DNA of 64,000 bases, from NCBI GenBank assembly GCA_030603445.1, contig JAUVXU010000005.1:40926-104925 (forward strand), written 5' to 3'. How positions within the stretch are numbered: position 1 is the first letter of the stretch; each line of letters starts with the position of its first letter. The DNA is from Methanomicrobia archaeon (lineage in GTDB: Archaea > Methanobacteriota_B > Thermococci > Methanofastidiosales > NM3). Positions 12,169-24,575 of this stretch are shown in pieces. A model generated the notes under the pieces. It saw only the letters and a list, made by a program, of their open reading frames with translations, ran no database searches and was not told the origin of the DNA. Position numbers and translations under genes: made by a program.

Positions 12169-12639
12169 ATGAAAGGTATTCTAATGGAAGTTGAGGGAAG
12201 AAGCACATATGCATTTGAGGAAGGAGAAATATCTATCTCAATAAAGGAGGGCGAAAAGAAAAATATCTGCCCCCATTTTGCCAAGGTCCTTGAAAAACAT
12301 AGTATAGTTACAATATCCATACTTACAAGTGCGATGTTACGCAAGAAGATCATGGAAGAGAGGGCACAGCCATTGCCCACAAAGTTGCAGGAAGATTTTT
12401 ATGAAACCGCAGAATTCACTTTTGAAAAATTAGCAGGACTAAACAACGATGAATCTAACAAAGTACGCGCCTTGGTAAAGGACCTCTTGCGACTTCGTAT
12501 GGGGAAAATTCATAAAATAGTATTGCAAACAAAAGAACCCAAGATTTCTCTAGAACCAGTAGAAAGATTATTTTACCGTAAAATAAAAACACTTATCGCA
12601 GAGACCGAGGCATTAGATGGAGGGAACAAAAAATGGTAG
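12169..12639 (+). CDS. GINS complex subunit (Gins51-like)
   Basis: 156-residue subunit of the archaeal GINS complex, which links MCM and the Cdc45/RecJ homologue in the replicative CMG-like helicase. The helical A-domain has LPTKLQEDFYETAEFTFEKL and KVRALVKDLLRLRMGKIHKIVLQ, typical of Sld5/Psf1-type archaeal subunits; a short B-domain-like end follows. Its 3' end overlaps the MCM start by seven bases, and gins-mcm linkage is a conserved archaeal arrangement. The TATA-like TTATATATTC near 12147 predicts a nearly leaderless message. ATGs at 12169 and 12184 are both possible starts. Confidence 0.85.
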   Translation: MKGILMEVEGRSTYAFEEGEISISIKEGEKKNICPHFAKVLEKHSIVTISILTSAMLRKKIMEERAQPLPTKLQEDFYETAEFTFEKLAGLNNDESNKVRALVKDLLRLRMGKIHKIVLQTKEPKISLEPVERLFYRKIKTLIAETEALDGGNKKW

Positions 12640-14681
12640 TGGATTTTGATATTATTATTAACGGGTTCAGGGATTTTATAGAAACCTATCCAGATATAGC
12701 AAATCCAAAGTACAAGCATTTGCTAGAGGAAATGGAGCTAACCGGCAAAAGAAGCCTCATAATAGATTGTGATGATCTCATAACATATAACCAGGAACTC
12801 TACACTGAACTTGTTAATAGTCCTATAGAAGTGATTTCCATTGCCGAACAAGTGCTTCATGAGATTCTTCAGGAAATGGGACAAATATCTCTCCATATCA
12901 GACCTACAAATCTTGATTCGACCCTGAAAAAAGGGATACGTAATATCCGTGCAGATGATATCCATAAATTAATTGAGATAAACGCTATTGTTGGCAGGGC
13001 CTCTGAAGTGAAACCCGAGATTGTAGAAGCAGTATTCGAATGTGAGCGATGCGGCGAAATAATATTTATTGTACAAGGATCCAATATATTCAAGAAACCA
13101 ACTGCCTGCACAAATCCAGCCTGTGGAAAATCTGGCCCTTTCAAATTATTAGAAGATCAATCGAAGTTCATGGACTGGCAGTCGATAAAAGTCCAGGAAC
13201 GCCCTGAATCCCTCAGAGGAGGCAGAATGCCGCAGCATATAAACTGTCTATTAAGAGATGATATCGTTGATAAGGCGACTGCAGGGTCACGCGTAATAAT
13301 CACAGGCATTCTCAAAACATTCCAGGACAGCCAACTCCGTGTTATGAAGACCACATTTTCAAAATACCTCGATGTAATGTCAATAGAAATATTAGAAAAG
13401 GATGTGGACGACACCACCATAACAGAAGAGGATGAAGTACGTATCTTGGAACTTTCCTCAGACCCGGAAATAGTGCAAAAGATAGTAGGTTCCATTTCCC
13501 CTTCCATATATGGGCATACTGACGTGAAGGAGGCTATTGCACTCCAGCTCTTTGCAGGTGTTGTTCGTGAGCTTCCTGATGGGACCAGGCTGCGTGGAGA
13601 CTCAAATATACTGTTGATAGGTGATCCGGGTGTAGCTAAGTCCCAAATTCTCCAGTATGTTGCTAGGTTGGCTCCAAGAAGTGTCTATACCTCTGGAAAA
13701 GGCACTTCAAGTGCTGGCTTGACCGCTGCTGTGGTGCGTGATGAAACAACAGGTGGTTGGGCCCTAGAAGCTGGTGCACTCGTCCTTGCAGACGGAGGAA
13801 TTGCCTGTATAGACGAGATAGACAAAATGTCAAAAGATGACCGTTCATCCGTACATGAGGCCATGGAACAGCAAACAATAAGCATTGCAAAAGCAGGTAT
13901 CGTGGCAACGCTCAACGCCCGTGCCTCTATTATTGCCGCTGCAAATCCCAAATTAGGCAGGTTTGATAATTATAAGAACGAACTTGAGCAAATAGATCTG
14001 CCTCCATCGCTGCTCTCTCGTTTTGACCTCATCTTCATATTAAAAGACATTCCAAATGAAGCTGATGATAGCAAGATTGCAACGCATATACTAGAAAGCC
14101 ATAGAGGTGTAGAAGATTGTATAATTCCAATAATAGATCCTGATTTTATGTTGAAGTATATTTCCTATGCGAAAAAAAATATTGAACCAGAACTCACTAA
14201 AGATGCAGCAGATAAACTCCACAAATTCTACATTAGCCTTAGGCATCAGGGCACTGAAAGCGGTGCAGTTCCCATAACAGCTAGACAGCTAGAAGCACTT
14301 ATTCGTCTATCAGAATCTCGCGCGCGCATGCGCCTATCTACTATTGTAACAGTAGAGGATGCTGAAGCCACCGTCACACTATATCGCAGTGTCATCGAGA
14401 AGGTAATGAGGGACAAGGAGTCTGGTGAAATAGATGTGGATATACTAATGACGGGAAAGGCCGCCTCACAACGACAAAAAATAATCAAAGTGTTTGAGAT
14501 AATAGAAGAAATTGAAAAAGAACATGACGAGGGTGCGCCGTACGAGGAAGTAGTAAAAAAAGCAAAAGAGATGGGGATAAGCAAGGAATTTGTCATTAGA
14601 ACTCTAGAAGAGCTCAAACGCACAGGAGAAATATTTGAACCAAGGGCGAGTGTCTTAAAGACCGTGAAAGCTAATTTTTAG
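12633..14681 (+). CDS. mcm: Replicative DNA helicase MCM
   Basis: 682 residues. N-terminal domain with the zinc motif CERC...CTNPACGK (about residues 137-163), an OB fold, then the AAA+ domain: Walker A GDPGVAKSQ near 332, Walker B GGIACIDEIDKM near 391, sensor 1 AAANPK, and the arginine finger in LLSRFDLIF near 461. A C-terminal winged helix covers about the last 80 residues. The hexamer unwinds DNA at replication forks. It is translationally coupled to the GINS gene. The 3' end overlaps the convergent RNase P gene by 11 bases. Confidence 0.97.
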   Translation: MVVDFDIIINGFRDFIETYPDIANPKYKHLLEEMELTGKRSLIIDCDDLITYNQELYTELVNSPIEVISIAEQVLHEILQEMGQISLHIRPTNLDSTLKKGIRNIRADDIHKLIEINAIVGRASEVKPEIVEAVFECERCGEIIFIVQGSNIFKKPTACTNPACGKSGPFKLLEDQSKFMDWQSIKVQERPESLRGGRMPQHINCLLRDDIVDKATAGSRVIITGILKTFQDSQLRVMKTTFSKYLDVMSIEILEKDVDDTTITEEDEVRILELSSDPEIVQKIVGSISPSIYGHTDVKEAIALQLFAGVVRELPDGTRLRGDSNILLIGDPGVAKSQILQYVARLAPRSVYTSGKGTSSAGLTAAVVRDETTGGWALEAGALVLADGGIACIDEIDKMSKDDRSSVHEAMEQQTISIAKAGIVATLNARASIIAAANPKLGRFDNYKNELEQIDLPPSLLSRFDLIFILKDIPNEADDSKIATHILESHRGVEDCIIPIIDPDFMLKYISYAKKNIEPELTKDAADKLHKFYISLRHQGTESGAVPITARQLEALIRLSESRARMRLSTIVTVEDAEATVTLYRSVIEKVMRDKESGEIDVDILMTGKAASQRQKIIKVFEIIEEIEKEHDEGAPYEEVVKKAKEMGISKEFVIRTLEELKRTGEIFEPRASVLKTVKANF

Positions 14682-15270
14682 CTTTGTTAATGGCGTTTAA
14701 AATATCGCTGACCTTTACACCAGGCATCTCGACGGATTCGCGCTTGAAAAAGGCGTTCAAGCTATCCTCCACATCCACAAAACGTATGCCTGTAAGGCAT
14801 TCCTTTAGCAATGGAAATTTTTCTTCAGGATAAAAGAAAAAATCACCAGTTATTGATATGTCATTTATCCTGTCGCCGCTATAAGAGAGTGACACGCACA
14901 AAAGCCCGCCCTTCGCTTTGTATTCTGCATAATGCTTAGTAGTACTGTTGCGATGTATTTTTTCTTTTCTAAAAGGAATACGCTTGATATTTCCACATTC
15001 CATGCAAGTTATTATGGTGCGATCATTTCTAGTGCGTATACGCGCAGTTTTACCTGGAACAAGGGGTATGTTACACGATTTGCAAAACATCCTTTTCTGC
15101 AATCTAGAAGGGGACACTTTGTGCTTCCTAGAAATATTTCGGGCAATCTCAATGTAGCGCCTGGATCTCTCGGGATGATTATCAAGGGATTTGATTGCCA
15201 ACTCAAAAAGAGCGTTTATATGGCTTGTCGCAATTCTCTGTCTGCCCTTCCTTAATCTCTTCCACATCAT
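14671..15270 (-). CDS. RNase P subunit Rpp21 fused to a lipoate-protein ligase C-terminal-like domain
   Basis: 199 residues, nearly twice the usual Rnp4/Rpp21 length. Residues 1 to about 105 are Rpp21: a helical part with HPERSRRYIEIARNIS, and the zinc ribbon MFCKSCNIPLVPG...CMECGN with four Cys. Rpp21 supports tRNA 5' processing by RNase P with Rpp29. From about 110 on, the sequence (KAKGGLLCVSLSY, INDISITGDFFFYPEE, LLKECLTGI) matches the C-terminal accessory domain of lipoate-protein ligases (LplB/Lip_prot_lig_C), which is needed for lipoate adenylation in archaea. No frameshift or stop separates the parts. A true fusion is the simplest reading. It lies next to nep1, another RNA-modifying gene. 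Confidence 0.8.
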   Translation of the reverse strand: MMWKRLRKGRQRIATSHINALFELAIKSLDNHPERSRRYIEIARNISRKHKVSPSRLQKRMFCKSCNIPLVPGKTARIRTRNDRTIITCMECGNIKRIPFRKEKIHRNSTTKHYAEYKAKGGLLCVSLSYSGDRINDISITGDFFFYPEEKFPLLKECLTGIRFVDVEDSLNAFFKRESVEMPGVKVSDILNAINKAKN

Positions 15271-15321
15271 ATCAAAGAATAGAAAAATTAGATAATATAT
15301 AAAACTATGTTTATATCACCA

Positions 15322-15936
15322 TTATTTTGTGTATATCACATGATTTAAGACAGACCATGCTACAAGCTCTTGCTGAAAAATAGAGTACTGTTCATAAGGC
15401 AGTTTAGTTTTGAAATCGCCATGGGAAAAACCTCCTATGACTACGACCGCATTGTCTGTTGATTCGTAAGCTTCACCATGAAAATTCATGACCTTTACAT
15501 CAAATCCAGAAGAGATGTCATTTAACAGCTCCAAAAGGGTCTTTTTCTCTATACGTAAGAGTTCATGGCCCCCTGCATCGATTCGCCCCTTCTCAAAGAG
15601 CTGCTCCATAAGCCCAACGAATCGGTGGTATGATTTAGGCACTTTCCATAGAGGCGACATATATATCACTTCATCGTTGCGTGTATGTATGTAGACCTCC
15701 AGTTCTCCTTTCTTGTTTAAGGGGGATTCCATTGCACAAAGCAGGCAGATATGGACAATGTCCGGGCGTCCACGACGGTATGCATCAGGCAATGCCTGCA
15801 TAGCGCGATGGTAATAATTACTGTCAAGCAGGGCAAAAGGTTTTTTCTTAAGCTTTAATTTACGAAGGGAAGAATGGCCGCGGATTTGGTGGGGAACAAG
15901 CTCCAGCTCGCTTTCGGCAATGACAATTTTAAGCAT
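15322..15936 (-). CDS. nep1: rRNA small subunit pseudouridine N1-methyltransferase Nep1
   Basis: SPOUT-class methyltransferase of 204 residues from the ATG at 15934-15936 (MLKIVIAES); the frame stays open upstream, but family proteins start here. Diagnostic parts are LLDSNYYHRAMQALPDAYRRGRPDIVHI, ESPLNKKGELEVYIHTRND and the knot end VVIGGFSHGDF. Nep1/Emg1 methylates N1 of a pseudouridine in the helix 35 loop of 16S rRNA and helps ribosome assembly. It follows the Rpp21 fusion on the genome in the same direction of reading and is divergent from the PRC-barrel gene. Confidence 0.92.
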   Translation of the reverse strand: MLKIVIAESELELVPHQIRGHSSLRKLKLKKKPFALLDSNYYHRAMQALPDAYRRGRPDIVHICLLCAMESPLNKKGELEVYIHTRNDEVIYMSPLWKVPKSYHRFVGLMEQLFEKGRIDAGGHELLRIEKKTLLELLNDISSGFDVKVMNFHGEAYESTDNAVVVIGGFSHGDFKTKLPYEQYSIFQQELVAWSVLNHVIYTK

Positions 15937-23630: not shown

Positions 23631-24575
23631 CTACAATGGCCTCAAAAACTGCACATCGCCCACAAGTATCTCCTCACGCTTTTCATCAAACTCAAGGATA
23701 ATTGCTCCATCGTCGTTTATGTCAACTACTTTCCCGACCTTTTCGCTCCCGAGGAACGAGATACGGACGAACTTTCCTATCGTATTTGAAATACTTCTGG
23801 AATAGTCCATGATATTTTTAAAATCTTTTTGCTCAAAAAGAGTATATTCGGCCTTGGAAGTATTGAGCAAAGCAACTAGAAACTGGTTGCGGTCTACTGT
23901 CCTTGATAGTATATTCTTTATAGACGTGGCATTTATGTCTTCAGGCATATCATTATTGACATTTATCCCCACCCCAACCACAACATAATGGATAAGGTCT
24001 GTATCAGACGAAACAAGAATGGAAACGCCGCATAGTTTCTTTTCACCATAATAAACATCATTTGGCCACTTCATCTGCACCTTTATCCCATACACGCTAT
24101 CTAGTGCCTTGGCAACAGCATTAGCAGCTACGAAGTTTAGCACCGAAGCGTGGGACGGTTGGCAGCGTGGGCGCAATATAAACGAGAACCAAAGCCCGCC
24201 TGGGGGGGATAACCATTCCCTATCCATGCGCCCCCTTCCTGCATCCTGCACTTCAGATACTACGGACGTGAGCTCTGGTGCACCGTCAAGGGCTAATTTT
24301 TTTGCATATGTGTTTGTGGAACCAATCACATCAAAACTATAAACAGGCATGAAGCCTGTCTCCCTCTCTATAAATTCCGGGACAATAATATCTGGAAATG
24401 ATAATAATTGGTATCCCTTATTGGTGCGCGAAGTGATTACAAATCCTTTCCCTTTTAAGTATGCGACCCTCTTAGATACTGCCTGGCGCGTTATGCCTAA
24501 TTTTTTAGCTATATATTCCCCAGAAACAAAATTATCTTGATCATCCAAGAGAATTTTTAATACTTCGTCAGCCAT
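23631..24575 (-). CDS. birA: Biotin-protein ligase with N-terminal HTH (BirA)
   Basis: 314 residues. The N-terminal winged helix (SGEYIAKKLGITRQAVSKRVAYLKGKGF) is fused to the ligase domain with SEVQDAGRGRMDREWLSPPG (biotinyl-AMP binding), MKWPNDVYYGEKKLCGV and VGVGINVNND, then the C-terminal SH3-like domain (GKVVDINDDGAIIL). It biotinylates carboxylase carrier domains, and the HTH suggests self-regulated transcription as in bacterial BirA. Two-domain BirA is commoner in bacteria than archaea. No biotin carrier gene is in the window. Confidence 0.9.
   Translation of the reverse strand: MADEVLKILLDDQDNFVSGEYIAKKLGITRQAVSKRVAYLKGKGFVITSRTNKGYQLLSFPDIIVPEFIERETGFMPVYSFDVIGSTNTYAKKLALDGAPELTSVVSEVQDAGRGRMDREWLSPPGGLWFSFILRPRCQPSHASVLNFVAANAVAKALDSVYGIKVQMKWPNDVYYGEKKLCGVSILVSSDTDLIHYVVVGVGINVNNDMPEDINATSIKNILSRTVDRNQFLVALLNTSKAEYTLFEQKDFKNIMDYSRSISNTIGKFVRISFLGSEKVGKVVDINDDGAIILEFDEKREEILVGDVQFLRPL

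Follow-up and report, generated by a model that had tools for sequence, protein, structure and literature searches.

The RNase P subunit Rpp21 (RNase P component 4) and LplB, the small subunit of the two-part archaeal lipoate-protein ligase, are joined in a single polypeptide encoded in the window, the 64,000-nucleotide stretch of archaeal DNA analysed here. The fusion is real and belongs to a whole family: it is present in all five genomes analysed from the window's family, a group of uncultured archaea related to methanogens, spanning three genera, with one full-length copy each, and in 0 of the 110 other genomes analysed from the phylum. Both domains are ordinary; their combination is new, and a description of an Rpp21–LplB fusion was not found in the literature searched. 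We consider it probable that two functional subunits became fused in this lineage alone, with Rpp21 acting in RNase P and LplB serving a separately encoded LplA in trans.

The fused gene lies between nep1 and a convergent mcm-like gene:

14671–15270, minus strand: fused gene rpp21::lplB, 199 amino acids, with full-length homologues in genomes G001–G004 (G000 being the window's own genome)
14962–15270, minus strand: Rpp21 domain, residues 1–103, with zinc cysteines C63, C66, C89 and C92
14935–14961, minus strand: linker, residues 104–112, variable, basic and of low model confidence
14674–14934, minus strand: LplB domain, residues 113–199, with the IxGDFFxxP motif (I140, G142, D143, F144, F145, P148)
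15296–15304, minus strand: TATA-box-like TTTTATATA, 26–34 bases upstream of the rpp21::lplB start codon, read from the sequence and presumed to function as a promoter element
15325–15933, minus strand: nep1 (16S rRNA pseudouridine N1-methyltransferase; Pfam EMG1, 3.5e-56), the upstream neighbour
12633–14681, plus strand: mcm-like gene, named from its sequence, overlapping the 3′ end of rpp21::lplB by 11 bases

The reading frame runs from 15270 down to 14671 with an ATG start, 199 codons and one stop, and contains no internal stop or frameshift. The first-pass annotation had reported Rpp21 running into a lipoate-ligase accessory domain at 14671–15270, leaving the strand unstated; the single frame, in which both domains are matched, bears this out on the minus strand. 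Upstream, nep1 lies on the same strand in every family member whose contig reaches that far. TATA-like boxes precede the fused gene at about the same position in the other four family genomes and, because of this recurrence, rpp21::lplB probably has its own promoter, giving a near-leaderless mRNA.

Profile, sequence and fold matches identify residues 1–107 as a complete archaeal Rpp21. Residues 18–93 match Pfam Rpr2 (PF04032; 7.6e-17, 61.8 bits against a cut-off of 29.3), and residues 6–110 match the NCBIfam RNase P component 4 model (NF003045; 1.5e-26), where the 92.9 bits lie below the strict equivalog cut-off of 162. The zinc ribbon, which the first-pass annotation had called intact, is just that: its four cysteines never vary, either within the family (wherever sequence could be compared) or across 46 further archaeal Rpp21 domains, and its fold is matched. 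Most residues conserved across those 46 are kept as well, with a few family-specific changes (for example, R17 to H). The predicted domain superposes on Pyrococcus Rpp21 Ph1601 with a TM score of 0.90 (2zae_B) and a Z score of 12.0 (1x0t; root mean squared deviation 1.1 over 101 residues), sharing with that protein and with the M. jannaschii subunit (6k0a) two N-terminal helices, the four-cysteine zinc ribbon and a fold match over the full length. In relatives, Rpp21 is about 120 amino acids long and ends in a short tail, whereas in the fused protein of 199 residues a second globular domain replaces the tail. Partners for this half are at hand in G000, which encodes an archaeal-type RNase P RNA (110.6 bits) and Rpp29; a search of that genome found no second Rpp21, the fused copy being the single match. 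Rpp29 and L7Ae flank Rpp21 in the M. jannaschii holoenzyme, where the C-terminal helix of Rpp21 rests against L7Ae and stem P12 of the RNA, distally in the complex (PMC6565675). A domain added at the C terminus of Rpp21 should therefore face away from the RNase P active site.

Residues 113–197 form a complete LplB by the same three kinds of match, which rule out a chance likeness of the C-terminal segment to lipoate ligases. Against the NCBIfam LplB model (NF053749; cut-off 65), the whole chain scores 67.5 bits and the segment alone 70.1 bits, with three of the four relatives slightly under the cut-off at 60–61 bits. This model fits the segment much better than Pfam Lip_prot_lig_C, the profile proposed by the first-pass annotation, to which residues 106–199 match at 1.9e-5 with 24.9 bits alone and, for the whole chain, at 22.6 bits, just under the cut-off of 24. 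The Thermoplasma acidophilum LplB structure (3r07 chain C) is matched by sequence (1.9e-12) and by the predicted domain (TM score 0.88, Z score 14.7, root mean squared deviation 1.8 over 87 residues). The core motif is kept in all five family fusions, and positions 44 (E) and 49 (G) of the LplB domain, common elsewhere, are altered in some of them; among loci retrieved with a peptide-pattern scan, IxGDFF is 100% conserved, in part because the chosen pattern selected for it.

Free LplB proteins, exemplified by T. acidophilum 3r07 chain C and Thermococcus kodakarensis Lpl-C, share with the fused domain the sequence, the fold, the IxGDFFxxP core and a separate catalytic LplA in the genome. The C-terminal segment is of the archaeal stand-alone LplB subunit type, not a piece of a bacterial one-chain ligase; the earlier description of a C-terminal domain of a lipoate-protein ligase was right as to an accessory domain and can be sharpened accordingly. 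A free LplB usually sits in the lip gene cluster, whereas that of the window stands behind Rpp21, next to nep1 and on another contig than the lip cluster. Being fused and away from that cluster, it is an LplB domain in a new fusion rather than a free small protein near lplA or lipS. LplB is also joined to another domain in one-chain Lpl(AB) and permuted Lpl(BA) ligases, but the partner there is LplA and here it is an RNase P subunit. If the gene were labelled RNase P component 4 and nothing more, the LplB would be overlooked.

The predicted structure (mean pLDDT 87.5) consists of two domains with a low-confidence linker at residues 101–110, the sole stretch that is both of low confidence and variable in sequence; it is rich in basic residues, which are located there rather than in the LplB domain. 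Residues 97–120 contain no ATG, GTG or TTG from which a separate LplB could start in four of the five family genomes, G000 included, and a linker ATG is present only in G003, at residue 109. Because the linker lacks a start codon, the product is very probably made solely as a fused chain in those four genomes. Later start codons (at residues 124 and 126 in G000 and 125 in G004) were considered for an internally initiated LplB and set aside, as they would truncate the first strand.

Each of the five family genomes has a single LplB match, always the fused one, and genome searches found no free LplB in any of them. The lone LplA catalytic domain that the first-pass annotation had suggested looking for is present in G000 (G000:C5:120387-120986), on a different contig from rpp21::lplB; it has no C-terminal domain, retains intact RRxTGGG and KISGSAQ motifs and scores best as an LplA large subunit. 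An LplA catalytic domain occurs in four of the five family genomes, the fifth being 77% complete. In G000, lplA closes a directly adjoining lipS1-lipS2-lplA cluster without lplB, in which LipS2 is above the cut-off of its model (NF053743; 296.3 bits, cut-off 270) and LipS1 below (NF053742; 181.5 bits, cut-off 230). The sequences of G001, G003 and G004 give the same gene order. The typical archaeal arrangement is lipS2-lplA-lplB-lipS1 (PMC10332631), and sister families retain lplB beside their lipS genes. GcvH, the expected lipoate acceptor, is also encoded in G000. Lipoylation of E2 in Thermoplasma requires both LplA and LplB (PMC3904984) and, on this analogy, a genome keeping LplA, LipS1, LipS2 and GcvH ought to need the fused LplB. 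More generally, LplB can come from the gene of a different process, so the completeness of archaeal lipoylation cannot be judged by the lip cluster alone.

On the basis of these observations, we propose that the N-terminal half serves as the cell's only Rpp21, taking its usual slot between Rpp29 and L7Ae, and that the C-terminal half, on its short flexible linker, would be the cell's only LplB, binding the separately encoded LplA. Together, LplA and the fused LplB would activate octanoate or lipoate and load GcvH, after which LipS1 and LipS2 would insert sulfur. Both activities would thus survive in the fused protein. Binding of LplA by the fused domain should be possible, because Rpp21 precedes LplB in the chain, and it is at this N-terminal end that bacterial one-chain ligases attach LplA; in Lpl(AB), the N terminus of LplB is already attached to another domain (PMC10332631). 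The fusion may have become fixed because it was a tolerated way to keep lplB expressed after its relocation, and not for the sake of regulation. Counting against this proposal are the greater divergence of LplB than of Rpp21 in the family, the altered positions 44 and 49 of the LplB domain, and the lack of linkage between lplA and the fused gene.

Rates of change point to constraint on both halves. Comparing G001 with G002 gives a dN/dS of 0.08 in the Rpp21 half and 0.13 in the LplB half, rough values with only 15 changes scored in LplB, and these indicate that both halves are under purifying selection. Between family members, the LplB domains are more divergent (32–45% identity) than the Rpp21 domains (49–57%). 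LplB also outpaces Rpp21 in divergence among three unfused relatives of a family in the same order (f4, which is Methanofastidiosaceae as judged from named records adjoining it in the tree), so there is no clear sign that LplB was relaxed by the fusion.

A different history is conceivable, in which the LplB domain has lost any role in lipoate metabolism and turned into an appendage of RNase P that binds RNA or protein and stands in for the Rpp21 tail or helix, while LplA alone acts as a LipM-type octanoyltransferase. Archaeal LplA proteins without LplB have repeatedly turned into LipM (PMC10332631), the Rpp21 C-terminal helix of M. jannaschii touches L7Ae and RNase P RNA (PMC6565675), and the LplB branches in the family are long. 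We nevertheless regard this as unlikely: the domain keeps its core motif in all five genomes, still scores as LplB and is under purifying selection, the G000 LplA is best scored as a large subunit, ACP, the donor for LipM, is absent from archaea (PMC10332631), and the basic residues lie in the linker and not in the domain. The first-pass annotation had offered both recruitment as a binding module and service to a separate LplA; the second is favoured over the first because the genome has no LplB other than the fused one.

The fusion might instead couple the assembly or location of RNase P functionally to lipoate loading, for example by keeping the amount of LplB in step with the capacity for tRNA processing, or by recruiting LplA to RNase P. 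The first-pass annotation had stated that tRNA processing and cofactor attachment have no known link, a statement at odds with work on mitochondria. In yeast, mitochondrial RNase P processes the 5′ ends of tRNAs less when any enzyme of mitochondrial FAS II is missing (PMC2774161), and a later study still entertains the idea that LplA modifies RNase P with a FAS product (PMC7831266). In vertebrates, the RPP14 mRNA carries a second reading frame for the FAS enzyme HTD2, conserved for 400 million years (Autio et al. 2008, cited in PMC5932603), so that there too the gene for an RNase P subunit is bound up with mitochondrial fatty-acid synthesis, from which the octanoate of lipoate derives. The conservation of one chain in three genera, with four of five linkers lacking an LplB start codon, would suit such coupling. 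On the other hand, neither Rpp21 nor LplB is involved in the yeast or vertebrate precedents, which concern other, unrelated subunits; RPP14/HTD2 is two proteins from one mRNA, with another subunit and another enzyme, and without homology to Rpp21–LplB. Moreover, the fusion is confined to one family in the phylum, a pattern that one old event would equally give, had the free gene then been lost and the fusion persisted through drift. Functional coupling therefore seems improbable to us, as does the idea that archaea have their own version of the mitochondrial tie of RNase P to FAS II or lipoate, in which the fused LplB brings LplA onto RNase P for joint regulation or an RNase P subunit is acylated. 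The fusion is nonetheless a natural case for asking whether the mitochondrial association of RNase P with octanoate and lipoate is coincidence.

Two working subunits in one lasting chain remain our preferred reading also over the proposal that a protease cuts the chain to release free Rpp21 and free LplB. The flexible, variable and basic linker at 101–110 would be the place for such a cut, but it carries no conserved cleavage motif and there is no sign of a dedicated protease, making this a very remote prospect.

The fusion was sought in 101 genomes and then in 115 genomes of the phylum. The other family members are 43–50% identical to the window's protein. Elsewhere in the order, and in a Thermococcaceae-like family (f5), the full-length fusion is absent, with Rpp21 and LplB matched apart. 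The Rpp21 halves of the family form one clade (support 99/99, recovered in 98% of bootstrap trees), so the fusion likely arose once; the LplB tree, at 91 columns, is too short to support or oppose one origin. Beyond the phylum, the contigs of 84,980 named genomes were scanned once with two fixed peptide patterns, an approach that may overlook fusions differing from them in sequence; no fusion turned up in GTDB outside the window's family. The scan returned four named records with the fusion, SpSt-1146 (DSAJ01000187.1), Zod_Metabat.1406 (JAFGGT010000012.1), MAG 293 (JAHKLV010000148.1) and NM3 (RXIG01000001.1), two of which bear the name Candidatus Methanofastidiosia; we take these to be the same relatives as G001–G004 and have not added them to the count. 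Although all named genomes here are metagenome assemblies, and the first-pass annotation had raised an assembly error as grounds for refutation, an artefact or a wrong joining of two overlapping genes has practically no chance of being correct, because five assemblies share the junction in one reading frame.

Some candidates were rejected on inspection. Open reading frames in Thorarchaeota (L162), Anaerolinea (L151) and Hecatella (L172), to which tblastn matched the fused protein from residues 59–69 onward, carry LplB but lack Rpp21. A second partial Rpp21 in G003 (C134) was considered as an unfused gene; over 82 residues it shares 97.6% identity with the first, it comes after nep1 and its contig ends there, and the two near-identical fused-gene starts in that genome (L097/L098; C189, C134) are probably strain variants of one locus.

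Several further lipoate-related loci were encountered. The only other match in G000 to the LplA catalytic model, a weak one, is a BirA-type biotin protein ligase with an N-terminal HTH at 23631–24575 of the window. An archaemetzincin-like protease gene immediately precedes lipS1 (L083:4005-4634, G000:C5), with a similar gene there in G001 and G004. G004, which also has the usual lipS-linked LplA, encodes a second LplA of 247 amino acids (L087:1082-3038, G004:C21), tail to tail with a lipoyl-domain E2-like protein and adjoining an E1-beta-like gene. Another family of the same order (f3) has two one-chain Lpl(AB) ligases, with frames of 375 and 362 amino acids (G006:C14, G006:C15, G009:C127, G009:C116); at least two kinds of LplB fusion therefore exist in this order. 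Another unusual lipoate-ligase fusion, a 578-residue frame in Thermodesulfobacteriota (L171:2077-3810, JALOOY010000009.1), combines an LplA catalytic domain, LplB and a C-terminal DUF116.
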